A stretch of DNA of 64,000 nucleotides from assembly GCF_000949135.2 (NCBI RefSeq), contig NZ_JTAN02000021.1, positions 186,001 to 250,000 on the forward strand. Direction: 5' to 3'. The position numbers and the translations under genes are program-made. Position 1 is the stretch's first letter. Each line of letters begins with the position of its first letter. This document shows, in pieces, positions 45,092 to 64,000 of the stretch. The DNA comes from Burkholderia sp. USMB20 (lineage in GTDB: Bacteria > Pseudomonadota > Gammaproteobacteria > Burkholderiales > Burkholderiaceae). The notes below the pieces were generated by a model, which saw only the letters and a program-made list of their open reading frames with translations, was not told the DNA's origin and did not search any database.

Positions 45092-45988
45092 TTACTTTTT
45101 CAGCATGTCGAGCACGGCATCGACCATCGGATGATGCCGGTTCGTATTCCAGACAGCGGCCGCCGTCACGACCATGACCTTTTCCTTCAACGGCCGCACG
45201 ACGACGTTCTCCGGCGCGAGCTTGCGGGTCGACGCAGGCACCAGCGCCACGCCCTGACCGCAGCCGACGTACGCAATCTGCGACGTCACCGAACGCACCT
45301 CGTGAATCACGCGCGGTGTCAGCCCATGCGTGCGGCAGACGGACGTCAACATGTCGAAGTAGACGGGGCTGACCTGTCGCGACGACATGATCAGCGGTTC
45401 GTCCATCAACGCGCGCAGCCGCACCCTTGGTATGGCCGCCAGTGGATGCTTCTTCGGCAACGCGACAGCGAGCCGGTCCTCGGCCATCGGCATCGTCGCG
45501 ATACCGTTCGCTACCTCGCCATCGACGCGTGCAAAGGCGAGATCAAGCTCGCCGGCCTCCAGCGCCGGAATCGCGTCGACGCTGTCGATCTCGTTGACGA
45601 ACACGGTCAGGTTCGGATGCGCGCGCTTGAGCGCGTCCAGTAGCGGCGGCACCGTGTCGAGCATCGCGGACGTGATCGCGCCGACGTGCAGCACGCCCGA
45701 CTGGCCGGCCGCTACCTCGCGCACGACACGCTGCAACCGCTCGGCCTGGCCGGCGAATTGTCGGACGGCCGGCAGGATCGCGGCGCCCGCCGGGCTCAGT
45801 TGGGTTCCCTGCCGCGAGCGGTAGAACAACTGGATCCTGAGCGACTGCTCCAGTACCTTGATCTGCTCGGTCAACGGCGGTTGCGACATGTTCAGCCGCT
45901 TCGCCGCGCGCCCGAAATGCTGCTCCTCGGCGACGGCGAGAAACATCCAGAGTTGCCGAATCAGCCGGTAGTCGATCGTGTTGCTCAT
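45092..45988 (-). CDS. LysR-type regulator of the RraA operon
   Basis: 298-residue LysR protein. The HTH is FGRAAKRLNMSQPPLTEQIK, and the effector domain is complete (GVLHVGAITSAML, GCGQGVALVPASTRKL), of the BenM/CatM-like branch. Divergent from the triple-RraA operon across 195 bp that contain matching inverted half-sites, so it is its likely activator. Convergent with the MocR gene. Confidence 0.9.
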   Translation of the reverse strand: MSNTIDYRLIRQLWMFLAVAEEQHFGRAAKRLNMSQPPLTEQIKVLEQSLRIQLFYRSRQGTQLSPAGAAILPAVRQFAGQAERLQRVVREVAAGQSGVLHVGAITSAMLDTVPPLLDALKRAHPNLTVFVNEIDSVDAIPALEAGELDLAFARVDGEVANGIATMPMAEDRLAVALPKKHPLAAIPRVRLRALMDEPLIMSSRQVSPVYFDMLTSVCRTHGLTPRVIHEVRSVTSQIAYVGCGQGVALVPASTRKLAPENVVVRPLKEKVMVVTAAAVWNTNRHHPMVDAVLDMLKK

Positions 45989-46084: not shown

Positions 46085-46128
46085 TTTCGTATTCCGGAAA
46101 TCGTATCACGCAGATATGAAATACGAAA
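46085..46128. promoter_or_regulatory. Inverted half-sites in the LysR/RraA divergent promoter
   Basis: TTTCGTATT (46085-46093) and AATACGAAA (46120-46128) are perfect 9-bp inverted arms. A third copy of the core, TCGTAT, lies at 46101-46106. This fits the recognition plus activation half-site layout of LysR proteins. Confidence 0.55.
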
Positions 46129-46183
46129 TTTACTTGTCACGCTGCCGAAGCGACGATGGCTGCACTTGTCAACGGGAAACAGC

Positions 46184-46846
46184 ATGATGAACCAGCCTTC
46201 CTTGCTCGAGCGCCTTGCGTCGCTCGACACCAATACCGTATCCGACGCGCTCGACTTTCTCGGCATGCCTGGCGCAACGGTCGGCCTGCGCCCACTGTGG
46301 AACTGCCCGAAGATCGTCGGGCGTGCCAGCACCATTCAGCTCGGTCCGAAAGCCGATGCCAAACCGACCGTGCACCTGATCTCGCCGGTCGTCGACGCGA
46401 TCGCCACCGACGATCGCGTGCTGGTGATCGCCGGCGGCGCGGACGGAATTTCCTGCTGGGGCGACATTCTCGCGAACGCGGCGACCGCGAAGCGCATTCG
46501 CGGCTCGGTGATCGACGGCCTGAGCCGCGACATCGACGGAAGCGAATCGATCGGCTATCCGGTGTACGGACGCGGCATCACGATGATCAGCGCGCGCAAC
46601 CGCGTGATCCAGATCGATTCCGGCACACCGGTGCAGATGGCCGGTGTGACCGTCCATCAGGACGATTACGTGATCGCCGACCGATGCGGCACGGTGTTCA
46701 TACCGGCGCGGTGCATCGAGGACGTGCTCGATCTCGGCGAGCGTATCGCGAAGCGACAGGACGGGATGGTCGCCGCCGTGCGTGCCGGCCGCCCGGTCGC
46801 GGACGTGATGCACGACAAGGAATTCGAAGCCATCGCGGTGCGCTGA
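46184..46846 (+). CDS. RraA-family protein 1 (aldolase/decarboxylase-like)
   Basis: 220 residues, RraA/HMG-CHA aldolase fold. The family catalyses metal-dependent retro-aldol cleavage of 4-hydroxy-4-methyl-2-oxoglutarate-like substrates or decarboxylates oxaloacetate; other members inhibit RNase E. Metal and substrate residues are intact: SCWGDILANAA and GSVIDGLSRDIDG, with the Arg-Asp pair kept. It opens a five-gene cluster with two paralogues, an aminotransferase and an alpha/beta hydrolase, arguing for catabolism and not RNA control. ATG 46184 or 46187; the family start fits either. Confidence 0.88.
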   Translation: MMNQPSLLERLASLDTNTVSDALDFLGMPGATVGLRPLWNCPKIVGRASTIQLGPKADAKPTVHLISPVVDAIATDDRVLVIAGGADGISCWGDILANAATAKRIRGSVIDGLSRDIDGSESIGYPVYGRGITMISARNRVIQIDSGTPVQMAGVTVHQDDYVIADRCGTVFIPARCIEDVLDLGERIAKRQDGMVAAVRAGRPVADVMHDKEFEAIAVR

Positions 46847-46874
46847 CCGCTCATCCTTCTAGCGGAGTTTTGAT

Positions 46875-47555
46875 ATGACGAATCCCAACAAGGCTGCGGC
46901 GGAAGACCAGGAACTGGTCGCGCTGTTCGAAGGGCTCGATACGCCCGGCGTTTCCGATGCGATGGACAAGCTCGGGCTGCACGGACAGGCGCTCGGCGTC
47001 ATGCCGTTGGCCAACTACACGAAGGTCGTCGTCGGTCCCGCCTTCACGGTCAAGTACGTGCCCGCGAGCGTGCCGCCCGGCACCGTCGGCGACTTCATCG
47101 ACGATGTCGCGCAAGGCGACGTGGTCGTGATCGACAACGACGGCCGGACCGACTGCACGGTATGGGGCGACATCATGACCCAGTACGCCGGGCAGCGTGG
47201 CATTGCTGGCACCGTGATCGACGGCGTGTGCCGCGACGTGAACAAGGCGCTGGGCGACAACTATCCGCTGTTCACGGCAGGGCGCTTCATGCGGACTGGC
47301 AAGGACCGTGTGCAGGTCGAGTCGGTGAATACGACGGTCGCGATCGGCACTGTGCGCGTGGCGGCGCGCGACATCGTCGTCGCGGATGCGAACGGCGCCG
47401 TGATCGTGCCCCGCGGTCGAGCGCGCGAAGTCGCACGGGTTGCTCGCCGGATCGAAGAAGTCGAATCGCATATCCGCGAACAGATCGCACAGGGCAAGAC
47501 GCTTGGCGAAGCGCGAGCGGCGCTGGGCTATCACACACTGCAAAGCAAGGCCTGA
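46875..47555 (+). CDS. RraA-family protein 2
   Basis: 226 residues, second RraA paralogue, only distantly similar to its neighbours. Key motifs: TPGVSDAMDKLGLHG at the N-terminus, TVWGDIMTQYA and GTVIDGVCRDVNKAL, so the glycine-rich loop and Arg-Asp pair are kept. GGAG precedes the ATG; 28 bp separate it from the first paralogue. A longer C-terminal helix (EEVESHIREQIAQGKTLGEA) may aid oligomerisation. Likely a carboxylyase or aldolase on a related intermediate. Confidence 0.88.
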   Translation: MTNPNKAAAEDQELVALFEGLDTPGVSDAMDKLGLHGQALGVMPLANYTKVVVGPAFTVKYVPASVPPGTVGDFIDDVAQGDVVVIDNDGRTDCTVWGDIMTQYAGQRGIAGTVIDGVCRDVNKALGDNYPLFTAGRFMRTGKDRVQVESVNTTVAIGTVRVAARDIVVADANGAVIVPRGRAREVARVARRIEEVESHIREQIAQGKTLGEARAALGYHTLQSKA

Positions 47556-47558
47556 ACA

Positions 47559-48203
47559 ATGAACCCGACCCAGACTTATGAGCCGGCGCTGCTGGAGCAG
47601 GCGCGCAAACTCGGCACCTCCACGTTGTTCGAGGCCTCGGGCCTGTCCACCGGCGCCGTCGATCCGGCGATCCGCACGGTGTGGCCCGGCGCGTCGGTCG
47701 CCGGTCCTGCCTTTCCGCTCGAATGTTCGCCGGGCGACAACCTTTCGATTCATATCGCGATGGAGCAGGTGTCGCGCGGCAGCGTGCTCGTCATCTCGAC
47801 GGGCGGCTTCGTCGCCGGTTACTGGGGCGAGGTGCTGACTGTCGCCGCCGAGGCGGCCGGCGTGGCCGGGCTGGTCATCGACGGTGGCGTGCGCGATATC
47901 GCGGCGCTGACCGCACGGCGCTTTCCGGTATTCACGCGCGGCATTTCCATGCGCGGCACGATCAAGGCGAGCGCGCCGTCGGTCGGACAGTCGATCAGCT
48001 TCGCGGGAACGCCTGTAGCCGCCGGCGATCTGGTCGTGGCCGACGACGACGGCGTGCTGGTGATACCAGTTGCATATGTCGAGACGACGCTGGCCCAAGG
48101 GCAGGCGCGTGCTGACAAGGAAGCGCAAATGATGGACGCATTGCGCGCAGGGCGCAGCACGCTCGAGCTGATGGGTCTGACGAACTGGAGGAACGCTCAA
48201 TGA
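47559..48203 (+). CDS. RraA-family protein 3 (4-carboxy-4-hydroxy-2-oxoadipate aldolase-like)
   Basis: 214 residues, third paralogue and the closest of the three to class II HMG/CHA aldolases: GDNLSIHIAMEQVSRGSVLV, YWGEVLTVAAEAAGVAGLVI and DGGVRDIAALTARRFPVFTR all match. Catalytic Arg-Asp is intact. It starts 3 bp after the second paralogue stop and its stop overlaps the aminotransferase start (ATGA), so translation is tightly coupled. A retro-aldol step yielding pyruvate or oxaloacetate is the best guess. Confidence 0.88.
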   Translation: MNPTQTYEPALLEQARKLGTSTLFEASGLSTGAVDPAIRTVWPGASVAGPAFPLECSPGDNLSIHIAMEQVSRGSVLVISTGGFVAGYWGEVLTVAAEAAGVAGLVIDGGVRDIAALTARRFPVFTRGISMRGTIKASAPSVGQSISFAGTPVAAGDLVVADDDGVLVIPVAYVETTLAQGQARADKEAQMMDALRAGRSTLELMGLTNWRNAQ

Positions 48204-49417
48204 GCGCACCGATCGATACGCTGAACCGCTTCCTCGCAGCCGCGCGTCCGTCGGCGACCTACAAGGTGATGGATCGTGTGGCCGCCCGGCGCGCGAGCGG
48301 TGCCGCGGTGATTTCGCTGAGCGCCGGCGAGCCGGATTTCGACACGCCGGAACACGTGCGGGAAGCGGGCATCGCCGCGATCCGCGCGGGCCACACGCGC
48401 TACACGCAGGTGGCAGGGCTGCGTGCGCTGCGCGAGGCGATTGCCGAGAAGTTCCGGCGCGAGAACAGCGTCGACGTGGACTGGCGCGACACGCTCGTGT
48501 GCAGCGGCGGCAAGCAGGTGATCTTCAATGCGCTGGCCGCGACGCTGAACGAGGGCGACGAAGTCATCGTCCCGGCACCGTACTGGGTCAGCTATCCGGA
48601 GATCGTGCAGCTGTGCGGCGGTCGCTCCATCACTGTCGCATGCGGCGCGGAAAGCGGCTTCAAGCTCACACCGGACGCGCTGCTGGCGGCGATCACGCCG
48701 CGCACGCGATGGCTGATCCTGAACTCGCCGTCGAACCCGACCGGCGCGGTGTATAGCCGTGCGGAGCTGAAGGCGCTCGCCGAGGTGCTGCTCGCGCATC
48801 CGCACGTGCTGGTGCTGTCCGACGATATCTACGAGCACCTGATTTTCGATGGCATCGAATTCTTCACGATCGCCCAGGTCGAGCCGCGGCTGCGCGAACG
48901 CGTGCTGACGATGAACGGTGTGTCGAAGGCCTATGCGATGACGGGCTGGCGCATCGGTTTCGGTACCGGGCCGCGCTGGCTGATCGATGCGATGGAGAAG
49001 TTGCAAGGGCAGCAGACGTCCGGCGCGTCGACGATCTCGCAGCACGCGGCGGTGGCCGCGCTGACGGGGTCGCAGGATTTCATCGCGCATTCCCGCGTCG
49101 CGTTCCAGCGACGGCGTGATCTGGTCGTCGAACAACTGAACCAGGCGCCGGGTTTGCGCTGCGATGTTCCGCAGGGCGCGTTCTATGCATTCGCGTCGTG
49201 CGAGGGGGTGATCGGCAAGACGACCCGTGCGGGCGTGCAACTGGCGAGCGACGAGGATGTGGTGAATGCGTTGCTCGACGAAGCCGGCGTGGCCACCGTG
49301 CACGGGAGCGCTTTCGGGCTCGGCCCGTACATCCGGATCGCTTACGCGCTCGACGACAAGTCGTTGCTGCGTGCGTGCACCGCGATCCAGGATTTCTGCC
49401 GGATGCTGACGGCCTGA
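48200..49417 (+). CDS. PLP-dependent class I aminotransferase
   Basis: 405-residue fold-type I aminotransferase of the AspC/aromatic type (class I alpha-beta subgroup). The PLP-lysine motif is MNGVSKAYAMTGWRIGFG; LNSPSNPTGAVYSRAEL and SDDIYEHLIFDG give the cofactor aspartate-tyrosine region, and the arginine near FGLGPYIRIAYA binds the carboxylate. Coupled by a 4-bp overlap (ATGA) to the third RraA gene. In this setting it would convert an amino acid such as a substituted glutamate or aspartate to the keto acid that the aldolases cleave (inference). Confidence 0.92.
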   Translation: MSAPIDTLNRFLAAARPSATYKVMDRVAARRASGAAVISLSAGEPDFDTPEHVREAGIAAIRAGHTRYTQVAGLRALREAIAEKFRRENSVDVDWRDTLVCSGGKQVIFNALAATLNEGDEVIVPAPYWVSYPEIVQLCGGRSITVACGAESGFKLTPDALLAAITPRTRWLILNSPSNPTGAVYSRAELKALAEVLLAHPHVLVLSDDIYEHLIFDGIEFFTIAQVEPRLRERVLTMNGVSKAYAMTGWRIGFGTGPRWLIDAMEKLQGQQTSGASTISQHAAVAALTGSQDFIAHSRVAFQRRRDLVVEQLNQAPGLRCDVPQGAFYAFASCEGVIGKTTRAGVQLASDEDVVNALLDEAGVATVHGSAFGLGPYIRIAYALDDKSLLRACTAIQDFCRMLTA

Positions 49418-49507
49418 GCGTCGTTGCCCGGCGTCTGTCATTCCACCCCGGTCGACCCTGTCGCGCCGGGGCGGGCGCTACACCATCCTTACCCGGAATT
49501 CGATTAG

Positions 49508-50314
49508 ATGAATGATGAGTTTTCCCAATCGCGCCTGTCCTTCGCCGTCGACAGCACCGACCTGGATGTGTCGGCCATTCATCGCGGCGGCGAGCACGCG
49601 CCCGTCGTGTTTCTCCACGGCTTCGGCTCGACCAAGGAGGATTACGCGGACATCGTGCGCCATCGCGAATTCGACGGCCGGCCTTTCGTTGCATACGATG
49701 CGCCGGGCTGCGGTGAAACGCATTGCGCGGATCTGTCGAAGATATCGATTCCGTTTCTCGTCGAGACGGCGCTGAACGTGATCGACCGCCTGGGCTTCGA
49801 TCGATTCCATCTCGTCGGCCATTCGATGGGCGGGCTGACGTCGTTGATGCTCGCACATCTGTATCCGCGGCGCGTGCTGAGCTTCGTCGACATCGAGGGG
49901 AACATCGCGCCCGAGGATTGTTTCCTGAGCCGGCAGATCGTCGACCATCCGCGCGACAGCGCCGAGCGGTTCTTCGACGATTTCATCGACCGCACCCGTC
50001 GCGCGCCGGCCTACGCGAGCGCGCTGTACTCGGCGAGCCTGCGTCACAAGGTGCGGGCCGAAGCGGTCGGGGCGATCTTCCGCTCGATGGTCGACCTGTC
50101 CGACAACGGCGACCTGATGCGCAAATTCCTCGGCCTGCCGTTTCCCCGGATGTTCATGTACGGCGCGCAGAACGCGTCGCTGTCGTACCTGAGCGCGATC
50201 GAGGCGCACGGTGTCGTTCTGTCGGAAATCCCGGATTGCGGGCATTTTCCGATGTACTCGAATCCGGTGCTGATGTGGAAGGCGATCGCGAAGTTCCATG
50301 CGCGCGTGCGCTGA
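49508..50314 (+). CDS. Alpha/beta hydrolase
   Basis: 268 residues, serine hydrolase fold. The nucleophile elbow GHSMGGLTS is near residue 104, the oxyanion region VVFLHGFGSTKEDY is near 33, and the C-terminal histidine is in IPDCGHFPMYSNP. The strand-turn-acid region is less clear. No signal peptide, so cytosolic. Last gene of the RraA cluster (90-bp gap). It may hydrolyse an ester or lactone precursor feeding the pathway. Confidence 0.87.
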   Translation: MNDEFSQSRLSFAVDSTDLDVSAIHRGGEHAPVVFLHGFGSTKEDYADIVRHREFDGRPFVAYDAPGCGETHCADLSKISIPFLVETALNVIDRLGFDRFHLVGHSMGGLTSLMLAHLYPRRVLSFVDIEGNIAPEDCFLSRQIVDHPRDSAERFFDDFIDRTRRAPAYASALYSASLRHKVRAEAVGAIFRSMVDLSDNGDLMRKFLGLPFPRMFMYGAQNASLSYLSAIEAHGVVLSEIPDCGHFPMYSNPVLMWKAIAKFHARVR

Positions 50315-50352: not shown

Positions 50353-51606
50353 TTACCGCACGCGTTCCGCGCGCATGATCCGGTGCGCCGCCGCCAGGCC
50401 GAGCACGAGCAGCACCGCGACATACGCGACGACCGCGCTCCACGCACCGTGTTGCCAGAACGAGCCGCCGATCGAGCCCAGCACGCTCGACCCGAGGTAA
50501 TAGGCCAGCAGGTAGAGCGACGCGGCGTGCCCCTTCGCGGAACCGGCGAGATGCCCGACCCAGCCGCTCGCGACCGCATGGGCGACGAAGAAGCCGATCG
50601 TGATCAGCACGATCCCGACGATGATCGCGACGAGCGAATGCGACAGCGTCAGCGCGAGGCCGGCCGCGAACACGAGCATGCCGCTGACGAGGACCGGCGC
50701 GCGCCCGAGACGGTCGGCGAGCGCACCGGCGCTCGACGAAGACACCATCCCGAACAGATAGGCACCGAAGATCAGCCCGCAGGCGGTCGCACTCAGGTTG
50801 AACGGCGCGGCCGTCAGCCGGAACCCGGCGTAGTTGTAGACGGTCACGAACGCGCCCATCACGAGGAAGCCGATCGCGAACACGTACGGCAGCCGCGCGT
50901 GATGCAACTGCGCGTTCCACAGCCGCAGATGGTGACGCAGCGTCAGGTCGGTGCGCTTCACGAAGCGTCGCGACTGCGGCAGCAGCATCACGAATGCGAC
51001 CGCCGCGACGAGGTCGACCACGCCGATCGTCAGCATCGCGGTGCGCCACGAGAAATACTCTTCGAGCGCGCTCATCCCGATCCGCCCGATCATGCCGCCG
51101 AACGCGGTGCCGCCGACGTAGAGTCCCATCGCCAGGCCCAGCCCGTCGGCGGCGATTTCCTCGGCGAGATAGGCCATCGCCACCGCCGGAACGCCGCCGA
51201 GCGCGAACCCTTCGAGCGCGCGCCAGAGCAGCAGCAGGTTCCAGTTCGGCGAAATCGCGGCGAGCAGGTTGAACAGCGCGGCCAGCGTCATCGACGCGAA
51301 CATCAGCCCGCGTCGTCCGACGCGTTCGGACAGCGCGCCCGCGCACAGGATGGAGACCGCCAGCAGCCCGGTCGACAGCGACAGGGACAGCGAGCTCGAC
51401 GCCGCGCCGATGTTGAACTCGCGTGCGAACGCGGGCAGCAGCGGCTGCACGCAGTACAGCAGCGAGAAGGTGGAAAAGCCGGCGAGGAACAGCGCGAGCG
51501 CGATGCGCTTGTAGGCTGCCGAGCGCGGCGACACGCCGATAGGCAGCGCATCCGGCGCGGCGTTCGCGGCGCGATTCGTGGCGGGTGACATTGCGGGAGT
51601 GGACAT
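50353..51606 (-). CDS. MFS transporter (YnfM-like)
   Basis: 417-residue, 12-TM transporter. The signature region FSTFSLLYCVQPLLPAFARE and the loop 2-3 motif GALSERVGRRGLMF place it near YnfM/arabinose-efflux-like exporters of the DHA1 group. Substrate unknown. Convergent with the alpha/beta hydrolase gene and divergent from a LysR gene (141-bp spacer), whose target it probably is. Confidence 0.9.
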   Translation of the reverse strand: MSTPAMSPATNRAANAAPDALPIGVSPRSAAYKRIALALFLAGFSTFSLLYCVQPLLPAFAREFNIGAASSSLSLSLSTGLLAVSILCAGALSERVGRRGLMFASMTLAALFNLLAAISPNWNLLLLWRALEGFALGGVPAVAMAYLAEEIAADGLGLAMGLYVGGTAFGGMIGRIGMSALEEYFSWRTAMLTIGVVDLVAAVAFVMLLPQSRRFVKRTDLTLRHHLRLWNAQLHHARLPYVFAIGFLVMGAFVTVYNYAGFRLTAAPFNLSATACGLIFGAYLFGMVSSSSAGALADRLGRAPVLVSGMLVFAAGLALTLSHSLVAIIVGIVLITIGFFVAHAVASGWVGHLAGSAKGHAASLYLLAYYLGSSVLGSIGGSFWQHGAWSAVVAYVAVLLVLGLAAAHRIMRAERVR

Positions 51607-55615: not shown

Positions 55616-56045
55616 CGGTGATTCCCCAAGGATGTTGTTGACCGGCAGCGGCCCGCTTCGGGCTCTGCAACTCGAAGCCGTTGACGCATGCCTTACAGGC
55701 GGCCTTCGACAACTATCGCGTGGCCGGATTCGACAGCCTGTGGCCGCCTGAAACAGGCAAGCACCCGCGGACATGCGGCCCCGAGAATTCTAGAAAGGGC
55801 GGTCGGGTCGGCTTGACACTCCGTCTCAAAAAATCGGAACTTCTATCGGATGCGCGGGGCCCGGTCGAATTGCCGAAAGCACGAGCGATCAGGCTCGCCT
55901 TCGCGCAGGTGGTGAAATCGCGATTCGCAAACGATTGCGTGATGCTGAAGAAGCGGGAGGGGACGCGCCGTGTGCTACGGCAAAGCACGTACTGGTATGC
56001 TTCCCATGCTGCACTAGCGCGTTCCGGGCGAGCGATTGGATCGAT
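55616..56045. other. Divergent spacer between two AraC-family genes
   Basis: 430 bp, somewhat AT-richer than the core. No gene or clear operator was recognised; small open frames here lack ribosome-binding sites and family motifs. Confidence 0.5.
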
Positions 56046-57191
56046 ATGGCGTTCAGGAGTGCTGGGCAGATCAAAGCCGGACGAAAATCAGCGAAGAGCG
56101 CCGCATTGAACGACGACCCACTACACACTGCGATACCGCCAGGCCGCCTGTTGTTGCCGCCGGAGCGGCCGGTGCTCGCGCCCGGCATCGTGCACAGCAG
56201 TTTCAGCGTTCACGGCGACGCCCGTCGAAGCTTGCTGGCCTGGCAAGAGCGTATGAGTCCCGTCTACGACATATTGCCGTCGTCGAAGCAAGCCGAGGAT
56301 ACGTTCGATGCATCGATGTCCCGTTACACGATCGAGAATCTGAGCATCTTCGACTTTCGCACGGGGCCGAACCTGGCCGTGCGATCGTTGGGTCGGGTTT
56401 CGACCGAGAGCGTGCGGGACGTCTCGTTCAGCATATATCTTGAAGGGTCGCCGGGGCAGTTCCTGGGCGGCAAACCACGGTCCGACGCGCCGCACGTGCC
56501 GCACGTGCCAAGTATCCTCGCCCTGGACATGGATCAGCCGTGCACGATCCGGAGTTTTCATAGCCGGATACTTCTCCTGTTTGTGCCACGCGCACTGGTG
56601 GAAAAGTCATTCCCCGATGCGGCCTCGCTGCATGGCCGCTGGATTCACGCCACCGATCCGCTGACGCGCATGCTGATCGAGCATGTGGTGGCGCTCAATA
56701 AGACCATCGTCGGACTGAGCAAGGATGAAGCGCATCGGTCCTTGCTCACGGCGGTAGAGTTGATCGTTGCAGCCTTCTGCCGCCAGGCGGGTCTTGCCGG
56801 CAATGCCCGCGCGGCGGTCCGCGCTGCTGTATACGGGCAAGTGCGGCGGCACGTCGAGGCAAATCTGCATGATCCGAATCTGTCGCCCGACAGCGTGTTG
56901 GCGTCGCTTAATCTCTCACGCGCCAGCGTGTACCGCATATTCGAGCATGAAGGGGGCTTGGCCGCTTATATCCGCAACCGCAGGCTGCGAATGGCGGCCG
57001 ATGAACTGGTGCGCTTTCCCCATGTGGAGGTACAGGACGTTGCCTCGGGGTTGGGCTTCAATGATGCGTCAAGCTTTACACGTGCATTCCGTCGCGCCTT
57101 CGACATCTCGCCACGGGAATTGCACGAGTACGCGCCGTTGTTCCAGCATGGGGATACAAAACGGGAGCGCTTCACGAAGAGGCAGGGTTGA
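56046..57191 (+). CDS. AraC family transcriptional regulator
   Basis: About 381 residues. An AraC-binding-like-domain type N-terminal sensor region (VSFSIYLEGSPGQFLGGKP, ILALDMDQPCTIRSFHSRI) resembles the FeaR/ChbR-like group. The C-terminus is an AraC HTH (LASLNLSRASVYRIFEHEG, VEVQDVASGLGFNDASSFTR). No adjacent target is obvious; the GlxA-like gene is divergent. The start at 56046 is the first ATG that keeps a normal length; no strong ribosome-binding site supports it. Confidence 0.85.
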   Translation: MAFRSAGQIKAGRKSAKSAALNDDPLHTAIPPGRLLLPPERPVLAPGIVHSSFSVHGDARRSLLAWQERMSPVYDILPSSKQAEDTFDASMSRYTIENLSIFDFRTGPNLAVRSLGRVSTESVRDVSFSIYLEGSPGQFLGGKPRSDAPHVPHVPSILALDMDQPCTIRSFHSRILLLFVPRALVEKSFPDAASLHGRWIHATDPLTRMLIEHVVALNKTIVGLSKDEAHRSLLTAVELIVAAFCRQAGLAGNARAAVRAAVYGQVRRHVEANLHDPNLSPDSVLASLNLSRASVYRIFEHEGGLAAYIRNRRLRMAADELVRFPHVEVQDVASGLGFNDASSFTRAFRRAFDISPRELHEYAPLFQHGDTKRERFTKRQG

Positions 57192-57371
57192 ACGGATTGG
57201 CTCGTCGACTGCGACGAACCTGGGTGGCAGCCGTGTTTCGATAGCTGCTCGAAGGCGGTGCCCCCGACCTGCACTCAGGGTGTTCAGAACCTGGTGAATG
57301 CTCAACCCGACGGATGGGCGCCGCGGCGACATGCTACGATCAATGCGATCCGACTTTCATCCCGACGCACC

Positions 57372-57974
57372 ATGACGACAATGTATGAATTGCTCGGTGT
57401 GCGCGAGAACGCCACCGACGAGGAAATCAAGCGCGGCTACCGGAAAGCAGCGATGAAAGCGCATCCCGACCGCAACGTCGGGTGCGAAGCGGACGCGCAT
57501 GCGCGATTTCAGGAGATCAAGGAAGCATACGCGATTCTCTCGGACCCGAAGCTGCGCCGCGTCTATGACACCGTTTACGCAGAGGAAATGCTCCGTCATG
57601 CACGGCTTCGCGAAGAAGAGGAACGCCTGAAGGCAGAGCGCGAAGCGGAATATGCGCGGTTCGTGGCATTGGCGATGCGCTTCGCCGAGCAAGGGCACAA
57701 TCGCGACGTCGTCTTCGGTGTTCTGCTCGGCCGTGATTGCGATGTTCAACTCGCCGAGCGCATTGCCGGCAGCGTGGTCGAGCTGCATGCGTCTCGCCAG
57801 CCGGACGCATCGCGGGACGGGCAGCGTGATGAGCAGATGCCGCAATGCGACGAGGGGGCGACACAGGAGGCATCGGAGCAGGCGCCAAAGAGCGACGCAC
57901 GAAGGAGTGACGAACACGCGCATACGGACTTTTTCAGCGCTCTGTGGCACGGCGTGTTCGGGCTGCGCCAGTGA
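57372..57974 (+). CDS. J-domain (DnaJ-like) co-chaperone, type C
   Basis: 200 residues. An N-terminal J-domain (residues 1-70) carries the HPD motif in [10 protein letters not shown] and the helix IV region [16 protein letters not shown] charged helix ([18 protein letters not shown]) and a low-complexity acidic tail follow; glycine/phenylalanine and zinc-finger regions of true DnaJ are missing. It would stimulate Hsp70 ATPase for a specific client. The tail ends [17 protein letters not shown], short and hydrophobic. First gene of the lower-GC island; no partner adjacent. Confidence 0.88.
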
Positions 57975-58099
57975 GTGCTGGTGGGGGACCGGGCTTGCGA
58001 ATGCGGAACTCGACCGCGATCGGTGGCATCTTCGGGGGAGGTTCTTCGAGCGACTGCTTCATGAATTGACGGCTAATTGGGCAGTATTCGGCTGCGGAT

Positions 58100-58261
58100 T
58101 CAACCCGTCGATGCAACGAATTGATGAAATTTCTCGATCGGTGTATCGAAGTCTAGTGTCTTTCGCGGACGTTCATTGAGCCGCCTGGCTACAGCGTTGA
58201 GCTTTCGCAGACGCTTCGCGACTGCGTAGCCAACCAATCCGATTGATTGACAAGCGTTCAT
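58100..58261 (-). pseudogene. IS30-family transposase remnant (C-terminus)
   Basis: On the minus strand the DNA reads AVARRLNERPRKTLDFDTP then IEKFHQFVASTG and a stop at 58100-58102. This matches the conserved C-terminal end of IS30-type transposases (LNxRPRKTLGFxTP). Upstream of about 58195 the similarity stops; the frame continues to an ATG at 58261 but reads as unrelated sequence. No inverted repeats were identified. The element is dead and marks past insertion at the island edge. Confidence 0.75.
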
Positions 58262-58382
58262 AACCGCCGCGAGTTTCGGTCGGTCGTTGGGCCATGGATG
58301 CCCGGATCGTAGACGATCAATGCTTTGCCGATCAACGATGCATGATTAACTGACGCGGCGTCTGGATTGATTCGAACATGGG

Positions 58383-58730
58383 ATGTCGGAGATGTATAGA
58401 AAATTGGTATGCGTGCTTGCCATAGGCCTGATTGTGACGCAGGGTTGTTTTGCCCTGACGGTTGACGAACTGATGCGCGGTCTGGATCAAGCACTTGGCG
58501 ACAAAGCATCTTCTACTACCCAACTCGCCGCCTACGTCACCGGCTACGTTCATGGAAGCGCAGAGTACGGGCGGACACTGGGGCTCGTCTGTGACGAATC
58601 TGGGCTGCGTTCAACGAACGACGAGCTGCGAGCGGTCCGAATCTATGTGGGCGCTAATCCAGACCAATGGCGTGACGGTGCACAAATATTGATTAATCGT
58701 GCGCTCATGTCACCCCGGTGCCGCCATTGA
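58383..58730 (+). CDS. Small secreted Rap1a/Tai-like protein
   Basis: 115 residues with a Sec signal (LVCVLAIGLIVTQGCFALT). The mature part resembles the Rap1a/Tai fold of type VI amidase immunity proteins: AAYVTGYVHGSAEYGRTLGL, a cysteine in LVCDESG, RIYVGANPDQWRDGAQIL, and a C-terminal cysteine in ALMSPRCRH for a disulfide. Those proteins are periplasmic and neutralise peptidoglycan amidases, but family members also occur without effectors. No amidase lies nearby. Start 58383 or 58392 (MYRKLVC). Confidence 0.6.
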   Translation: MSEMYRKLVCVLAIGLIVTQGCFALTVDELMRGLDQALGDKASSTTQLAAYVTGYVHGSAEYGRTLGLVCDESGLRSTNDELRAVRIYVGANPDQWRDGAQILINRALMSPRCRH

Positions 58731-58758
58731 TCGGTGCCTGCCGTACCTGACGGGCATC

Positions 58759-58787
58759 GGCCAGGAAGGGACATTCGGCGTCAGATC
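58759..58787 (+). repeat. Dispersed island repeat, copy A
   Basis: Begins GGCCAGGAAGGGACATTCGG and matches copy B (62203-62230) at all but a few positions over 26 bp. Copies lie only between genes of the island. Confidence 0.6.
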
Positions 58788-58846
58788 CGATGGTTGGGGT
58801 GCGTCGTTCAGAAACATTTCTTGACGTCTTGCCGCCGTCGCAGTCC

Positions 58847-58870
58847 GGCCAAGATCGGCCGTTCGCCTTT
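58847..58870 (+). repeat. Dispersed island repeat, copy C
   Basis: GGCCAAGATCGGCCGTTCGC and following bases; related to copies A and B in the GGCCA-R-GA...TTCG frame, 60 bp from copy A. Confidence 0.45.
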
Positions 58871-59162
58871 GCCGCCGTGTTGTCATTCGAGCGACGGCTC
58901 TGCTATCTGTTGACCGACATTTTCCGAACGTTGGATCGGCGCGCGCAGCTCGCTTCGCGTTGCAGCGGTAGAACCCTAAAAAAATGTAACCTTTTCGTCG
59001 CCGTAGCGGCATTGACGGTGATTGCGAAGGCGTCTCTTGTGCTAGGAAAACCGGGAACTCGGAGTCGTTATCGCGGAAACTCTGGCCGTCCATCTTCGCT
59101 GCACGGACGATCGGGTGACAAATGCATAACGCGCCGTAGCGGCAGGCATGGACAGGTAGCTT

Positions 59163-60080
59163 CTAATGTGGAGTGGCGCGGTCTCCAAATGCCTTGTGTA
59201 GCGCTTCTTGAAACTTTTCAGCGATTTTCGCGAATCCCTTGTGCGTAGGATGCAACTCGTTAGCCCAGTCTTCGTTATCAGGATTCAACGCCGATTGCGT
59301 TCTCACAACTATCACGTTCTCGGCAATGGTCGGAAGTTCGCCGAGCATCGTTGCGAATTTACAGAGGATCGTGGAGACGATGCTACGTCCCGCCGTGAAA
59401 AATCTAGGGTCCACCTCGAAAGTGGTCCACCCTCGATCGGCGAATGACGGATGTAGCCATGGTCCAACGAGTCCGTCGCAGATGGAAGCGTTCGTCGGCG
59501 TGGCGAAATCATATTGATGGAAGAAAAGGTAGGAGCTTCGAGCGTACTGATTACGTATATCGATTAAATCCAGATATGCCCGCTTCACTATGTCCATGAT
59601 ATCTTGCAGCGCGTCAGTATTGACAGCGTTCGCTGGGTCATGGCCGACGGATGCAGCATCTTTCAACCAGAACCGGAATGCATCGCCGACTAGGTCATTG
59701 CCACCGCCAGAGAAAAGGATCGCATCGAACGGCGCGAGCGCTGGATCTTTGAGCGTCGCTATCAACCTATCGCGCTTGGAGGCTCCGAGTAACGTAGTCG
59801 TAGCATCGCCATAATGCGCAAGCTTCAATGGTTTTGGGTGAAGGTTCATCAGCCCCGTCAGCGACACGATTACGTCCGTGGGAAGATGGCCGAGCGACGG
59901 CACCGGATAGTCGAACCATGAATCACCAACTGCCAGTAGATTCAGTGGCTGTACAAGCGCGCCAGCGAAGTTCTTTCGAGCGTCATCCAACTGACGTTTG
60001 TGCTCCACTCGACGCGCCTCGATGTCTGATTGAATCTGTTGCTGCAATTGACGATAGGCGTCTAACGTATCGCGAGCCAT
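59163..60080 (-). CDS. Cytosolic SGNH/GDSL-type hydrolase
   Basis: 305 residues. The SGNH blocks are visible: VGDSWFDYPVPSLGH (block I serine), FSGGGNDLVGDAFRF (block III Asn) and ELHPTHKGFAKIA (block V His). The first 40 residues form a charged helix (LQQQIQSDIEARRVEHKRQ). No signal peptide is present, so an intracellular esterase or acyl hydrolase is likely; the substrate is unknown. GGGAG precedes the ATG. Lower GC than the core genes. Confidence 0.85.
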   Translation of the reverse strand: MARDTLDAYRQLQQQIQSDIEARRVEHKRQLDDARKNFAGALVQPLNLLAVGDSWFDYPVPSLGHLPTDVIVSLTGLMNLHPKPLKLAHYGDATTTLLGASKRDRLIATLKDPALAPFDAILFSGGGNDLVGDAFRFWLKDAASVGHDPANAVNTDALQDIMDIVKRAYLDLIDIRNQYARSSYLFFHQYDFATPTNASICDGLVGPWLHPSFADRGWTTFEVDPRFFTAGRSIVSTILCKFATMLGELPTIAENVIVVRTQSALNPDNEDWANELHPTHKGFAKIAEKFQEALHKAFGDRATPH

Positions 60081-60636
60081 GTGCTACTCCCGGGAACAGA
60101 CGATCTGAATGACGATTTAGGATGTATGTACCGCCGAATTGAGAATAGGCGAGAAGCAGGTTAAGTCAATTCGTAGTGAAATAGCACGTCAAAGCCGCAT
60201 GGACATTCATACCTTCATCTAGGAGAACCACCAAGTCTGCCGGCATGGCAGCTCTCTCGAGATCGTCGGCGTTTGACCTTTCGATTCACAACGCTGCTCA
60301 ATGTAGAGCGGCGGTCCGAGCAATGACCGCATCGCTCTTACAATCGCCGTTCATCATCCATGCGGCACAATGTCAGAAACGGGTCGAGTTCTGCCGACCG
60401 TGTCGGGCGGTAGCCGGCCAAGAGCGGCCAATCACAATTCGCTCGCAAAGTCCGCTTACCAGTGGGGAGCCGCCCTCTACGCGGCGACGGCGAACAGCGG
60501 GTCGTCGGCCTAGACTTCGGTTCACAACCTTGCGTTCGCGCCTCCCGTCGGCTCGGTTATGCTCTAGCGGATACCTTGTTCGCGGACGGCGAGATACCCG
60601 AGCGCCGTCACGCGACGCTGGCAGGAGTACGGGCGA
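60081..60636. other. Gene-free spacer with one dispersed-repeat copy
   Basis: About 555 bp between divergent genes. It includes repeat copy D (60416-60430). The open frame over 60245-60640 has no family motif or ribosome-binding site and was not called. Confidence 0.5.
60416..60430 (+). repeat. Dispersed island repeat, copy D (short)
   Basis: GGCCAAGAGCGGCCA; shares its first nine bases, GGCCAAGAG, with copy E (62938). Confidence 0.4.
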
Positions 60637-62103
60637 ATGAATAACAACACGCAATCGGAACTCGCGTCAGACGCGCCGCATGATCGTACGCGCCGCAAGC
60701 TGTTGCAGGCGGGCATAGCCGGCGCCGGCGCCGCTACACTGCGCCCCTGGCTGTCGTGGGCTGCACCATCAGGCGTCGTCGTCAACGACGTGACGCTCCT
60801 CAACCCGATCTGGGTGGATCGTTTGCTCACCCCGCGTACGACGGACGAGATCCGGATGGCGCTCGCCACATGGACTGGCCCGGTCTGCATTGGCGGCGGC
60901 CGTTACAGCATGGGGGGACAGATTGCCACTGAACATAGCCTGCACCTTGATATGCGCCAGTTCAATCGAGTGCTTGATTACTCGCCTAAGGACAAGGTTG
61001 TGCGTGTGCAAAGCGGGATACGTTGGCGCGACCTACAGTCGGTCATCGACCCGCACGACCTCTCAGTGAAAATCATGCAGAGCTACGCCAACTTCACAGT
61101 GGGCGGGGCGCTGTCGGTCAACGCGCATGGGCGCTACGTTGGTGCGGGCCCGGTTATCAACTCCGTGCGCGCACTGCAAATTGTGCTCGCTGATGGCTCG
61201 GTGGTGGAGGCGTCCCGCAACACCAACGCCGACTTGTTCCACGCGTCCATTGGTGGCTATGGCGCGCTCGGGATTATCACCGAGGCCGAGTTTGACCTCG
61301 CGCCGAATGTCACCATGGAACGCCAGGTACACCGCATGCAGGTTGCCGACTACCCCAAATTCTTCGATGACCACGTACGCGGGAACGAACTGGCCGTCTT
61401 GCACAACGCTGATCTGGCGCCACCCGACTTCGAGCAAGCCACGTCCGTTACCTGGCTCACCACCGGAAAAGCCCTGACCGTCTCAGATCGGCTAGTCCCG
61501 CCGGGGCAATCGTACGAATTCGACCAAGCCGTCATGTGGGGCGTAGCCAAATTTCCTGGCGGCCAGTCGTTTCGCAAGGATGTGGTCGACCCATTGCGCT
61601 ACCTCAGCCACCCGGTCGTGAAGCGCAATTACGAGGCAAGCCAGGACGTCGCCTCACTCGGACCTATTGCCACCGGAAACAGCACCTACGCGCTGCAAGA
61701 GTATTTTGTGCCGATTACCCAGTTCGACGCCTTCGTATCGCGAATGGCCGCCATACTGCAGACGCATCGAACACACGCCGTCAACGTTTCCGTTCGGCAC
61801 GCACCCGCCGATCATGCCTCTTGGCTGGGCTGGGCACGCGAAGAGGTGTTTTCATTCGTACTCTATTACTGGCAACGGGTGTCCGCCGCGGATCGCGAGG
61901 AAGTGGGCACGTGGACACGCGAAGTCATCGACGCCGCGTTGTCGCTCGGGGGCACCTATTATCTGCCGTATCAACTGCATGCGACACGCGAGCAGTTTGC
62001 ACGTGCCTATCCCAACGCGCCGCGCCTTTTTACACTCAAGGCACAAGTGGATCCGAGCAATCGATTTCGGAACAAACTATGGGATAAGTACAGCCCTCGG
62101 TAG
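60637..62103 (+). CDS. Tat-exported FAD-binding oxidoreductase (VAO family)
   Basis: 488 residues. A twin-arginine signal (DRTRRKLLQAGIAGAGAATL, residues 17-36) directs export of a folded flavoprotein. The FAD-binding type 4 (PCMH) domain follows, with GGGRYSMGGQIA near residue 86 and NFTVGGALSVNAHGRYVGAG near 150; the lactone-oxidase-like C-terminal part ends VDPSNRFRNKLWDKYSPR. In covalent family members the first motif reads GxGHS; here the histidine position is arginine, so FAD is probably non-covalent. AGGAG precedes the ATG. Substrate unknown. Confidence 0.87.
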   Translation: MNNNTQSELASDAPHDRTRRKLLQAGIAGAGAATLRPWLSWAAPSGVVVNDVTLLNPIWVDRLLTPRTTDEIRMALATWTGPVCIGGGRYSMGGQIATEHSLHLDMRQFNRVLDYSPKDKVVRVQSGIRWRDLQSVIDPHDLSVKIMQSYANFTVGGALSVNAHGRYVGAGPVINSVRALQIVLADGSVVEASRNTNADLFHASIGGYGALGIITEAEFDLAPNVTMERQVHRMQVADYPKFFDDHVRGNELAVLHNADLAPPDFEQATSVTWLTTGKALTVSDRLVPPGQSYEFDQAVMWGVAKFPGGQSFRKDVVDPLRYLSHPVVKRNYEASQDVASLGPIATGNSTYALQEYFVPITQFDAFVSRMAAILQTHRTHAVNVSVRHAPADHASWLGWAREEVFSFVLYYWQRVSAADREEVGTWTREVIDAALSLGGTYYLPYQLHATREQFARAYPNAPRLFTLKAQVDPSNRFRNKLWDKYSPR

Positions 62104-62202
62104 CGTAGGTCCGTCTCATGCAGACAGCGGAGCGGACAGTCGTGGACATTGTCCGATTGGCTCTAACGGGTCGGCTACAGCCAAGCGCGTTGTGCTGCAG
62201 CA

Positions 62203-62230
62203 GGCCAGGAAGGGACGTTCGACATCAGCG
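62203..62230 (+). repeat. Dispersed island repeat, copy B
   Basis: GGCCAGGAAGGGACGTTCGA continuing CATCAGCG; closest relative is copy A. It sits in the 302-bp gap 62104-62405, which otherwise holds only the next gene's ribosome-binding site (GAGAGGT). Confidence 0.6.
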
Positions 62231-62405
62231 GTGAGATCGTCGACAATCCATGAACCCGTAGATGTTCACGGTTCGGTGGCAGGTCAGCGGAGGTTCGCTA
62301 CCGAGGAGGAGTCGACAGCCCCTGCCTAGCCTCCCGCTTATTGCGGTCACACGCGCATCCTGGCTACCAGTATTGTGCGCAACGCCCCAAATGAGAGGTA
62401 TATCG

Positions 62406-62873
62406 ATGACCTGGCTCGGGCCCCTCGCAAGTTTCGGCGGCAGTTTGATTATCGCAATCATTACCGCTCTCCTTACTGTTCGCCTCGCGCTGAAGCGCTT
62501 TTATGCTGAGAAGTGGTGGGAACGACAGGGCGCGGCCTACGAGTCGATCTTTGAGGCACTCCATCACGTTAGAAACTACGCGGATACTAATCTTTCATTC
62601 TCCCTTCGAGGTCGGGAATTGCCTGAGGAAGGCGAACGGGAGCTAACCGAAAAGCTTCAAGGCGCGATGGCTGAACTCCGAAAGCAAGTGGATATAGGCA
62701 GCTTTGTCCTGTCGGAAAGCGCCATTCGCGTTATGGTTAAGTTTATGTCCGATTTGGACGGATCAACCAAGACGACGTGCTGGCAGGAGCATCTTGAGCT
62801 AAAGCTGGCTTCTGTCGACAGTTGCTTATCGAGCATGCGTCTTATAGCAAGACAAGACTTGAGGCTCAAATAG
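62406..62873 (+). CDS. Membrane-anchored protein, function unknown
   Basis: 155 residues. One N-terminal transmembrane helix (LASFGGSLIIAIITALLTVR) is followed by a helical cytosolic domain (KWWERQGAAYESIFEALHHV, ELTEKLQGAMAELRKQ). I do not recognise it; the layout (TM helix, conserved WWERQGAAYE, helical domain) is common in uncharacterised island proteins. GAGAGGT gives a good ribosome-binding site. Codon use is unlike the core genome, fitting horizontal origin. Confidence 0.72.
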   Translation: MTWLGPLASFGGSLIIAIITALLTVRLALKRFYAEKWWERQGAAYESIFEALHHVRNYADTNLSFSLRGRELPEEGERELTEKLQGAMAELRKQVDIGSFVLSESAIRVMVKFMSDLDGSTKTTCWQEHLELKLASVDSCLSSMRLIARQDLRLK

Positions 62874-62937
62874 CGTTCTCATGTCCCCGTGACGTCTTGG
62901 TTTGACGCAAGCCCGCACTCGTCAATCGGCCGGGTTC

Positions 62938-62958
62938 GGCCAAGAGCCGACCTTCGCC
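62938..62958 (+). repeat. Dispersed island repeat, copy E
   Basis: GGCCAAGAGCCGACCTTCGC plus one base; lies in the 137-bp gap before the last gene. Confidence 0.4.
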
Positions 62959-63010
62959 AACGGCCGCCTTGCGGTTGGAAAATCACAAGGGCACTTACGA
63001 CCTCATCACT

Positions 63011-63862
63011 ATGACACCCGATCAGATTAACGCCATCTACCAGAATCTCTGCCAGAGGACGCTGAATCCTGCAGAACTTAAGCGGCAACTGGACAGCGTC
63101 GTAAACAATTCCACTGCTGTCGACGCTGTCCTCTACTTGCCGATGTATTCGATGGGAATGGGCCAGGCCGGCATAACTCGACGCATTGACGCGCTCCGAG
63201 CGCTGCCATTCACGATAGAAGATGCCGTCAGTGGTAGACAGACGGTTGCCGACATTGAGCAGCTCGCCGTTGTCGGCGGAAAAGAATTCGGGATGCGCAG
63301 GCGCGTCGAGGAACTCTTCATGCGGGCGAAAGAGATTTCCGCTTATGGAACGGACCGGCTCGCGACAGTTCTTCAACCGAAGAAGAATTGGTCACTCGAC
63401 GATATCGTAGATCCGTTCACGGTCCTCTATACCTTTACAGGTGTCGCAGACAAGGCGGCGCTTCATATCCTGATGGACCTGGGATGGGGAGTGGTAAAAC
63501 CGGATCGGCATATTTGTCGGTTCGTCAGCAGGCTAGGTGGCCAATGGAAACGATACTTTCCTTACGGCGCTACGGATGATCTCCGCCCAGCGCTCACGCT
63601 TCCGTTCGTGAGAGCATGGCAGGACGCTTGCGCACCCTTTTCTTCGAGTGCGCTGGCGCCACCGCCATCGCGCAACGGTGTGATGTTCCCAGGTGTCTCT
63701 GAGCTCAGCTCTCGCCAAGTCGATCGCTTGGTTATGTGGTACGCGCAGGACCGAGCGAAGGAGGAGCACGGGTGGCGCCCAAAGCCTGTTTGCGGCAAAC
63801 AACCGGACTGCCAAAGTTGTTCGGTTCAGGATTGTGACGCGCGCGAGCAAGACTCGGCATGA
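63011..63862 (+). CDS. Endonuclease III-like (HhH-GPD) DNA glycosylase with Fe-S-type cysteines
   Basis: 283 residues. The centre aligns with endonuclease III: TGVADKAALHILMDLGWG keeps the catalytic lysine (Lys148), and VVKPDRHICRFVSRLG keeps the aspartate (Asp165), spaced as in Nth. The C-terminus has four cysteines, 261, 267, 270 and 275 (C-X5-C-X2-C-X4-C), close to the 4Fe-4S loop of Nth (C-X6-C-X2-C-X5-C). The N-terminal 100 residues are not typical. A bifunctional glycosylase/AP lyase acting on damaged or modified bases is predicted. The start is uncertain (ATG 63011 or TTG 62969); no ribosome-binding site is clear. Confidence 0.75.
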   Translation: MTPDQINAIYQNLCQRTLNPAELKRQLDSVVNNSTAVDAVLYLPMYSMGMGQAGITRRIDALRALPFTIEDAVSGRQTVADIEQLAVVGGKEFGMRRRVEELFMRAKEISAYGTDRLATVLQPKKNWSLDDIVDPFTVLYTFTGVADKAALHILMDLGWGVVKPDRHICRFVSRLGGQWKRYFPYGATDDLRPALTLPFVRAWQDACAPFSSSALAPPPSRNGVMFPGVSELSSRQVDRLVMWYAQDRAKEEHGWRPKPVCGKQPDCQSCSVQDCDAREQDSA

Positions 63863-64000
63863 CACAACACTCGACGTGCGGAAGTGACATCAGGCCATAG
63901 TTTTCGGGAGGCTGCTTTTCGGCTTCGAATCCTGACCGCGGAAGTTCCGGATTGGGTCGGATAGCGCCCGCCGGTAGAGGTGCACACTCAATCTCCCTTT

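Follow-up and report, generated by a model that had tools for sequence, protein, structure and literature searches.

A LysR-flanked operon with three RraA-family genes in Burkholderia sp. USMB20, possibly for the catabolism of C4-branched glutamates

We analysed a stretch of 64,000 nucleotides from Burkholderia sp. USMB20 (contig NZ_JTAN02000021.1, positions 186,001 to 250,000; hereafter the window) and describe an operon in which three tandem RraA-family genes (R1, R2 and R3) are followed by an aminotransferase gene (AT) and an alpha/beta hydrolase gene (HY), with a LysR-type regulator gene diverging from them. Tentatively, and with somewhat less than even confidence, we read it as a LysR-controlled, patchily shared operon for the catabolism of a C4-branched glutamate, in which transamination would be followed by retro-aldol cleavage to pyruvate. 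The operon was compared across 91 loci, being the window, 80 contig loci and 10 plasmid loci, all of which hold R1 by selection. The contig loci are the best 80 of 196 relatives among GTDB contigs (75-95% identity), with a tilt to Burkholderiales; some loci end at contig or record edges, so that counts of absence are upper bounds. Gene presence was taken from tblastn counts, whereas spacing and the joint count of aconitase-X and tricarboxylate-binding proteins come from an analysis of open reading frames (ORFs), in which some genes escaped detection, such as R1 in L054, L063 and L085. Related strains are not independent and the p values given below (Fisher, hypergeometric, Poisson) are therefore too small. 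The features are listed here with their Pfam matches and the number of loci in which they are present:

45092-45988, minus strand, divergent from R1: LysR-type regulator (LysA); PF00126/PF03466; 81/91 loci.
46085-46128, no strand: inverted repeat TTTCGTATT/AATACGAAA in the divergent LysR-R1 intergenic region, a probable LysR operator.
46184-46846, plus strand: R1, RraA-family protein of 220 aa; PF03737, E 1.1e-29, 104.1 bits.
46875-47555, plus strand: R2, RraA-family protein of 226 aa; PF03737, E 1.4e-34, 119.9 bits; 80/91 loci.
47559-48203, plus strand: R3, RraA enzyme of 214 aa resembling 4-hydroxy-4-methyl-2-oxoglutarate (HMG)/4-carboxy-4-hydroxy-2-oxoadipate (CHA) aldolase; PF03737, E 1.9e-37, 129.2 bits; 60/91 loci.
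48200-49417, plus strand: AT, class I aspartate-type aminotransferase; PF00155, E 1.8e-79; 71/91 loci.
49508-50314, plus strand: HY, alpha/beta hydrolase with nucleophile S106 in GHSMGG; PF00561, E 6.9e-21; 59/91 loci.
50353-51606, minus strand: major facilitator superfamily (MFS) transporter, convergent neighbour of HY; PF07690.

Pfam matches and coordinates confirm the arrangement described in the initial annotation, namely three tandem RraA genes, an aminotransferase, a hydrolase and a divergent LysR gene. The stop/start coupling of AT to the RraA genes, also claimed there, is a 4-nt overlap between R3 and AT (ATGA at 48200-48203); the other gaps measure 28 nt (R1-R2), 3 nt (R2-R3) and 90 nt (AT-HY). 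Of the proposed boundaries the end at 50314 holds, while the start at 46085 is the first base of the inverted repeat and the first gene begins at 46184. This repeat is the sole one detected in the LysR-R1 intergenic region at the settings applied and encloses GTATC-N5-GATAT (46103-46117); a GTATC-N5-GATAC-like core lies within the best conserved block of an alignment of 13 upstream regions. It probably acts as the LysR operator. A scan for promoters and terminators gave no signal above shuffles (0 promoters against 0.6, 1 terminator against 2.6).

Identity to R1 is 30% for both R2 and R3, and all three score above the Pfam gathering score for PF03737 (24.5). The D-X20-R-D motif is the form found in RraA-family aldolases. 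We compared 84 R1, 80 R2 and 50 R3 orthologues in an alignment numbered after the HMG/CHA aldolase of P. putida F1 (3NOJ). G101, R123 and D124 are kept in all of them, and position 102 is D in 84/84 R1 and 80/80 R2 and E in R3. In the window the motifs read D-X20-R-D (R1, R2) and E-X20-R-D (R3), with loops WGD, WGD and WGE; all three have the class II pyruvate aldolase core, R3 with E rather than D as the acid at 102, and the Arg-Asp pairs and loops are intact as had been claimed. The available part of PMC5065237 mentions two motifs, and the residues compared here have been probed by mutation in the P. putida F1 enzyme.

Beyond this core the three proteins part company. R3 has the equivalents of N71, H75, R123, D124, G144, T145, K147 and R195 in 50/50 orthologues, whereas R40 is not conserved and D102 is replaced by E. 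R1 carries A, R and R at 144, 145 and 147 and I at 195 (84/84), and R2 carries G, K and R with the same I at 195 (80/80); neither the 84 R1 nor the 80 R2 orthologues possess the substrate-side residue set of the HMG/CHA aldolases. Positions 71 and 75 are gapped in R1 and R2 and their alignment is uncertain, though the invariant His64 of R1 might be the counterpart of H75. Against solved structures R3 matches 3NOJ (E 8.1e-32, 193 residues aligned), and the best match of R2 is 3K4I, an uncharacterized protein. Given the invariant residues of each clade, R3 looks like an HMG-type aldolase, whereas R1 and R2 are predicted to keep the metal/pyruvate core with substrate pockets different from that of R3. 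We say that R3 works like such an aldolase rather than classing it as one because it stays below the cut-offs of the relevant models (172 of 179 bits for the CHA aldolase model NF006731, 161.9 of 304.5 bits for TIGR02798). With the LigK-type HMG/CHA aldolases (PF03737) R3 shares the metal/pyruvate residues and most of the phosphate-site residues, and R1 and R2 mainly the core; unlike those enzymes, window R3 is tied to an aminotransferase and not to aromatic ring cleavage. Redundant or decaying RraA copies can be rejected, as each clade has its own conserved site.

AT is best matched among solved proteins by aspartate aminotransferase A (6F77, E 2.5e-148), and K105, K243 and R379 are invariant in 68 orthologues, as expected for a class I aspartate aminotransferase. 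We take K243 to be the pyridoxal phosphate lysine, R379 the C-terminal arginine for the carboxylate and K105 the lysine of the GGK motif for the distal carboxylate, which would fit dicarboxylic substrates. The score against the aspartate transaminase model NF004769 (PRK06107) is 525.1 bits, below its cut-off of 617. In HY, S106 is invariant in 55 orthologues and the protein is possibly a lactone, ester or amide hydrolase.

Orthologues of R1 are found at 73-95% identity in Beta-, Alpha- and Gammaproteobacteria, some of them plasmid-borne. A full orthologue is present in 15/65 Burkholderia genomes (76-95% identity) and a fragment in 1 more; any R1 match at E<=0.001 occurs in 44/65, the non-orthologues being distant RraA proteins. 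Among 421 plasmid records with any R1 match, 15 have one of at least 60% identity. The best 14 listed (Burkholderia, Cupriavidus, Bosea, Pararhizobium, Diaphorobacter, Paraburkholderia, Rhizobium, Pseudomonas and Pantoea) lie at 73-87% and the next listed match at 42.5%, and because of this fall R1 can be regarded, judged by sequence identity, as a sharply bounded orthologue group. When 398 genomes of the phylum were searched with a profile of R1 and its sister R1' (see below), 6 matched at 1e-45, and the matches of the 3 below 1e-90 (G001, G195 and G402) are taken as R1 itself. The distribution over genomes, plasmids and contigs indicates that the cassette is sparse, patchy and probably mobile. 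A B. cenocepacia plasmid (L001, NZ_CP091015, 266,568 bases) and a contig of B. latens LMG 24064 (L044, 266,649 bases) have neighbour proteins that are 99-100% identical, and apparently represent the same plasmid in two species. The annotation of the P. aeruginosa plasmid pCF39S places a class 1 integron integrase and drug-resistance genes at a distance of about 8-11 kb from the cassette (L029, 1-3956). Cupriavidus necator A5-1 has three R1 cassettes (L055, L065 and L103) of differing content: R1-R2-R3, R1-R2-R3 with aconitase-X (AcnX), and R1-AT-HY with PxpABC-AccC.

The initial annotation had proposed a search for conserved RraA triplets with an aminotransferase, and held that a lack of co-conservation would speak against it. 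R1-R2-R3 is present in 60/91 loci and all five genes in 43/91, so that the triplet is co-conserved, though neither R2 nor R3 is indispensable. R1 and R2 lie within 100 nt in 74/77 cases, R2 and R3 within 5 nt in 47/58, and R3 and AT within 5 nt in 37/47. As this order and close spacing recur across many genera, the gene set exceeds chance. Reduced forms comprise R1-R2-R3-AT (8 of the 91 loci), R1-R2-AT-HY (7), R1-R2 (7), R1-R2-R3 (7) and R1-AT-HY (6), and more rarely R1-R2-AT (5), R1 (3), R1-R2-R3-HY (2), R1-AT (2) and R1-R2-HY (1); a few stem from contig ends. R1 lacks R2 in 11/91 loci, among which L030 and L053 end at the record edge soon after R1. The idea of three diverged, non-redundant enzymes agrees with the clade-specific sites. 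Each of R2, R3, AT and HY is lacking from some members of the family, and this disfavours a complex strictly of three subunits as well as a chain in which all three steps are obligatory.

Diverged copies forming a sister triplet (R1'R2'R3') were found in eight loci (L114, L115 and L117-L122) from Burkholderia, Aminobacter, Rhodococcus, Sphingobium, Bradyrhizobium, Polymorphobacter and Streptosporangium. R1' and R2' stand side by side in 8/8, and the order R1'-R2'-R3' is kept in 5/8 (L114, L115, L117, L118 and L122); of the seven loci other than L117, five have R3'. Identities between the window and L114 copies are 36% for R1, 47% for R2 and 40% for R3, and the R1' loop is WGG in 8/8 (WGD in R1). 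In a tree of 41 proteins, which includes one LigK-like protein on a very long branch, R1 with R1', R2 with R2', and R3 with R3' and LigK are each set apart by a supported branch (98/91, 97/96 and 100/96). R1, R2 and R3 are therefore best seen, on this phylogeny, as separate, old clades, and since the sister triplets fall in the same three clades, the module would predate the present operon. The sister genes are thus orthologous to those of the window, and differ by their divergence and by settings that mostly look aromatic: 7/8 loci (all but L117) have aromatic-degradation-like surroundings, with LigB dioxygenase, amidohydrolase, RidA or ring-hydroxylating dioxygenase genes in mixed combinations (L114, L115 and L118-L122). 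Pfam confirmed LigB in 5/5 loci scanned (L114, L118, L119, L121 and L122) and amidohydrolase-2 in 3/3 (L114, L119 and L122). No LigK-like gene is annotated within the stretches of L120 and L121, and R1'-R2' may therefore be the aldolase there.

The surroundings of the operon in relatives were established by gene calling and clustering, with counts from tblastn (91 loci). A split thiamine diphosphate (ThDP) decarboxylase (ThDP1/ThDP2) is present in 24/91 loci, against 0.05 expected from the density of ThDP1 in 65 Burkholderia genomes. Genomes with a close ThDP1 homologue (at least 83%) are R1-positive in 5/5 cases and those with a homologue of at least 50% in 8/12, compared with a background of 15/65 (p about 4e-4 for either set). 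This association is not merely physical, as 4 of the 8 R1-positive ThDP1 genomes have the two genes more than 20 kb apart or otherwise unlinked; the presence of the decarboxylase is independent of AT (20/71 AT loci vs 4/20 others, p 0.57). The pair is related to sulfopyruvate decarboxylase at scores below the model cut-offs (TIGR03845 115.1 of 147.95 bits, TIGR03846 138.1 of 221.5 bits). A second group consists of PxpA (13/91 loci), PxpB (13/91), PxpC (14/91) and AccC (9/91), found beside the operon in B. cenocepacia, P. aeruginosa, Cupriavidus and others. PxpABC is the 5-oxoprolinase, which opens the lactam of glutamate; the operon-linked form differs in mostly having AccC and biotin-carrier genes besides, and it is absent from the recognised surroundings of the operon in the window. 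PxpBC-AccC genes are akin to urea carboxylase. PxpA occurs in 13/71 AT loci and 0/20 non-AT loci (p 0.06), and at the genome level 2/2 genomes with AccC are R1-positive (p 0.05), a number too low to carry weight. G001 (C18) and G036 (C3) each carry a second AccC copy with, some 4 kb away, another RraA gene that is only distantly related to R1 (25-27% identity), a hint of an independent RraA-carboxylase link in these genomes. Further neighbours are acyl-CoA dehydrogenase (10/91), CoA-transferase (9/91), FAS1-type dehydratase (9/91), a RipC/Ccl-like lyase (4/91) and the amino-acid permeases AnsP (5/91) and AGCS (3/91), with glutamate-dehydrogenase-family genes near some copies.

The most informative locus is L105 (Pseudomonas fluorescens PS833), where R1-R2-R3-AT-ThDP1-ThDP2-acyl-CoA dehydrogenase-CoA-transferase-FAS1-type dehydratase-RipC/Ccl-like lyase follow each other on one strand, and a succinate-semialdehyde-dehydrogenase-like gene, cut by the locus end, lies beyond a LysR gene. 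In P. aeruginosa and C. necator, enzymes of such kinds form acetyl-CoA and pyruvate from itaconate and methylsuccinate (available parts of PMC9875883 and PMC12290011). As far as these parts go, the itaconate/methylsuccinate cluster (PA0878-PA0886; Pseudomonas, Cupriavidus) shares its kinds of steps with L105 and partly with other loci; unlike in that cluster, such genes are seen only beside some relatives' operons and none in this window. In C. necator A5-1 the linked acyl-CoA dehydrogenase has three copies (75-79% identity), of which L141 adjoins MmgE and FAS1-type dehydratase genes and L139 lies in a run of CoA-transferase, lyase and dehydratase. With respect to a role as methylsuccinyl-CoA dehydrogenase, no A5-1 copy lies in a complete five-gene cluster.

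AcnX is found in 11/91 loci, that is in 10/20 loci without AT (L032, L048, L057, L058, L059, L060, L062, L065, L068 and L074) and 1/71 with AT (Fisher p 2.8e-07), and is accompanied by tripartite tricarboxylate binding proteins in 9/11 AcnX loci (ORF-based count). Its best model is cis-3-hydroxy-L-proline dehydratase (309.6 bits, below the cut-off of 700). Since AcnX and AT mostly occur in different loci, the R cassette seems to take 2-oxo acids from either transamination or dehydration, an argument for placing the RraA enzymes downstream of AT, with the 2-oxo acid as their substrate. In L026, which lacks the AT orthologue, another annotated aminotransferase adjoins R2.

Outside the operon proper, the MFS cluster of the window is present in 4/91 loci, and this transporter may or may not be a member of the operon system. 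The part of the window from 56000 to 64000 has a GC content of 0.55-0.62 (0.63-0.73 across the rest), carries DnaJ-domain and FAD-binding genes and is possibly acquired DNA.

Because decarboxylase, lactam-opening and itaconate/methylsuccinate-type genes adjoin the operons of relatives, the 4-substituted glutamate suggested by the initial annotation is a sensible substrate; C4-branched glutamates are the substrate class that we favour, with R3 as the favoured aldolase. The gene set with its order and conservation, the catalytic residues and the neighbourhoods are observed; from them we infer the substrate, every reaction and the division of labour among R1, R2 and R3. The substrate would be 4-methyl-, 4-methylene- or 4-hydroxy-4-methylglutamate, or a lactam, lactone or amide form of these; 4-methyl(ene)glutamates occur in plants. 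HY would release the amino acid where it is bound as a lactone, ester or amide, a role that neighbouring Pxp or amidase enzymes might fill in relatives. AT would then shift the amino group to a 2-oxo acid, leaving a 4-substituted 2-oxoglutarate, and R3 would carry out a metal-dependent retro-aldol reaction on the 4-hydroxy-4-substituted form to give pyruvate and a second 2-oxo acid (two pyruvates in the case of HMG). Monatin-type chemistry combines an HMG aldolase and an aminotransferase to make a 4-hydroxy-4-substituted glutamate, in the reverse direction and as a production process rather than a natural operon. R1 and R2 would be pyruvate-enolate enzymes whose specificities are related yet distinct (for another stereoisomer or substituent, or for hydration and dehydration between the methylene and hydroxy-methyl forms), possibly in part as an R1-R2 heteromer. 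Substrates without the hydroxyl group would be finished in some relatives by ThDP decarboxylase, aldehyde dehydrogenase and CoA-ester enzymes through a methylsuccinate/itaconate-like route: with AT and the decarboxylase acting in turn, 4-methylglutamate would yield methylsuccinate semialdehyde and 4-methyleneglutamate itaconate semialdehyde. The gene content of L105 suggests that both could feed the itaconate/methylsuccinate route there.

A number of observations weigh against this reading. R3 is missing in 31/91 loci, so that the best aldolase candidate is not always present, and the AT orthologue is missing in 20/91. The reactions of R1 and R2 may differ from that of an aldolase, as most of their substrate-side positions do. 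The concentration of AcnX in non-AT loci, together with its hydroxyproline-type best model, points to another, perhaps hydroxyproline-like substrate for part of the R1 family. The ThDP, Pxp and CoA-ester genes are confined to a minority of loci, and none of them belongs to the window operon or to the neighbours recognised around it; no HY was detected in L105. The L105-type lower-pathway proteins do not reach the NCBIfam equivalog cut-offs for itaconate or sulfopyruvate enzymes, and the five-gene cluster of C. necator, as given in the available part of PMC12290011, was not matched intact in C. necator A5-1.

Compatible with the C4-branched glutamate reading, R1 and R2 (with or without R3) could form one hetero-oligomeric aldolase instead of catalysing three steps, which we consider possible yet doubtful. 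The triplet is old, closely coupled and retained in two different settings, and on a Streptosporangium roseum plasmid (L117, 10341-12282) it is accompanied only by a divergent LysR gene, no further metabolic operon being apparent next to it; nevertheless, each of R1, R2 and R3 has retained its own R-D core, and the loci with R1 and no R2, or with no R3, do not fit.

A substrate without the methyl branch is unlikely: 4-hydroxyglutamate (or its lactam or lactone) would be converted by AT to 4-hydroxy-2-oxoglutarate, and by the RraA enzymes to pyruvate and glyoxylate. The enzyme logic is identical, with an aspartate-type AT, and the gamma-lactone might be opened by HY and a 4-hydroxy lactam by PxpABC; the best model of AcnX, though below its cut-off, hints at hydroxylated amino acids, so that a hydroxyglutamate- or hydroxyproline-like substrate is conceivable. 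However, such a route has no need of the ThDP decarboxylase, acyl-CoA dehydrogenase, CoA-transferase and citramalyl-CoA-lyase-like genes of L105, and AcnX accompanies AT in a single locus.

A wider reading, to which we give a rather low chance, is that the old R1-R2-R3 module is a hetero-oligomeric hydratase-aldolase for 4-methylene/4-hydroxy-4-substituted 2-oxo diacids, fed by at least three routes, namely ring cleavage, transamination and aconitase-X dehydration. Here it would serve a hitherto undescribed route for plant 4-methyleneglutamate-type amino acids, leading to pyruvate and (through the ThDP branch) to the itaconate/methylsuccinate pathway.

Distinctly improbable is the use of hydroxylated di- or tricarboxylic acids instead of amino acids, with AT running in reverse to dispose of a 2-oxo acid product. 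Half of the loci without AT have AcnX, often with tripartite tricarboxylate binding proteins, which speaks for it. Yet 71/91 loci have AT, in most cases overlapping R3 or directly next to it, some copies have amino-acid transporters and glutamate-dehydrogenase-family genes nearby, PxpA is restricted to AT loci (at p 0.06), and the best model of AcnX acts on hydroxyproline, itself an amino acid.

That the operon belongs to aromatic degradation of the protocatechuate-4,5/gallate type is very improbable. R3 resembles HMG/CHA aldolase, and the sister triplets adjoin LigB dioxygenase and amidohydrolase-2 genes; however, none of the five LigB and two amidohydrolase-2 queries from the sister loci matched any of the 91 R1 loci at E 1e-8, which is why the window operon does not look aromatic, and it contains no gene of these kinds. 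Finally, a role of R1, R2 and R3 as non-catalytic, RNase-regulating RraA proteins, as the annotation habit ('RraA family', 'dimethylmenaquinone methyltransferase') might suggest, has a negligible chance and is rejected, since all three score far under the cut-offs of the RraA regulator models, the catalytic core is invariant and the operon partners are metabolic.

Among the open-access matches listed, we found no description of this operon, in line with the initial annotation, which had seen in it a candidate for an undescribed pathway; none of the function of the sister R1'R2'R3' genes; and, in titles and abstracts, none of bacterial use of 4-methyl(ene)glutamates. Related end steps are known from lignin-fragment degradation, with an HMG-aldolase step (available part of PMC12673573), and from riboflavin degradation with a retro-aldol end (available part of PMC12746152). 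The kinds of enzymes are therefore known, while their combination and substrate appear to be undescribed within these matches. Overall, the scheme of the initial annotation is partly supported and has become more specific.

In the annotated records seen, these genes are currently labelled 'RraA family protein' or 'dimethylmenaquinone methyltransferase', which is uninformative on function; the present analysis replaces a vague annotation with a short list of testable compounds. If the C4-branched glutamate reading is true, it would give these RraA genes a concrete job, reveal a reusable three-enzyme module for C-C cleavage that is common to different pathways, and account for the use of branched glutamates by soil and plant bacteria.

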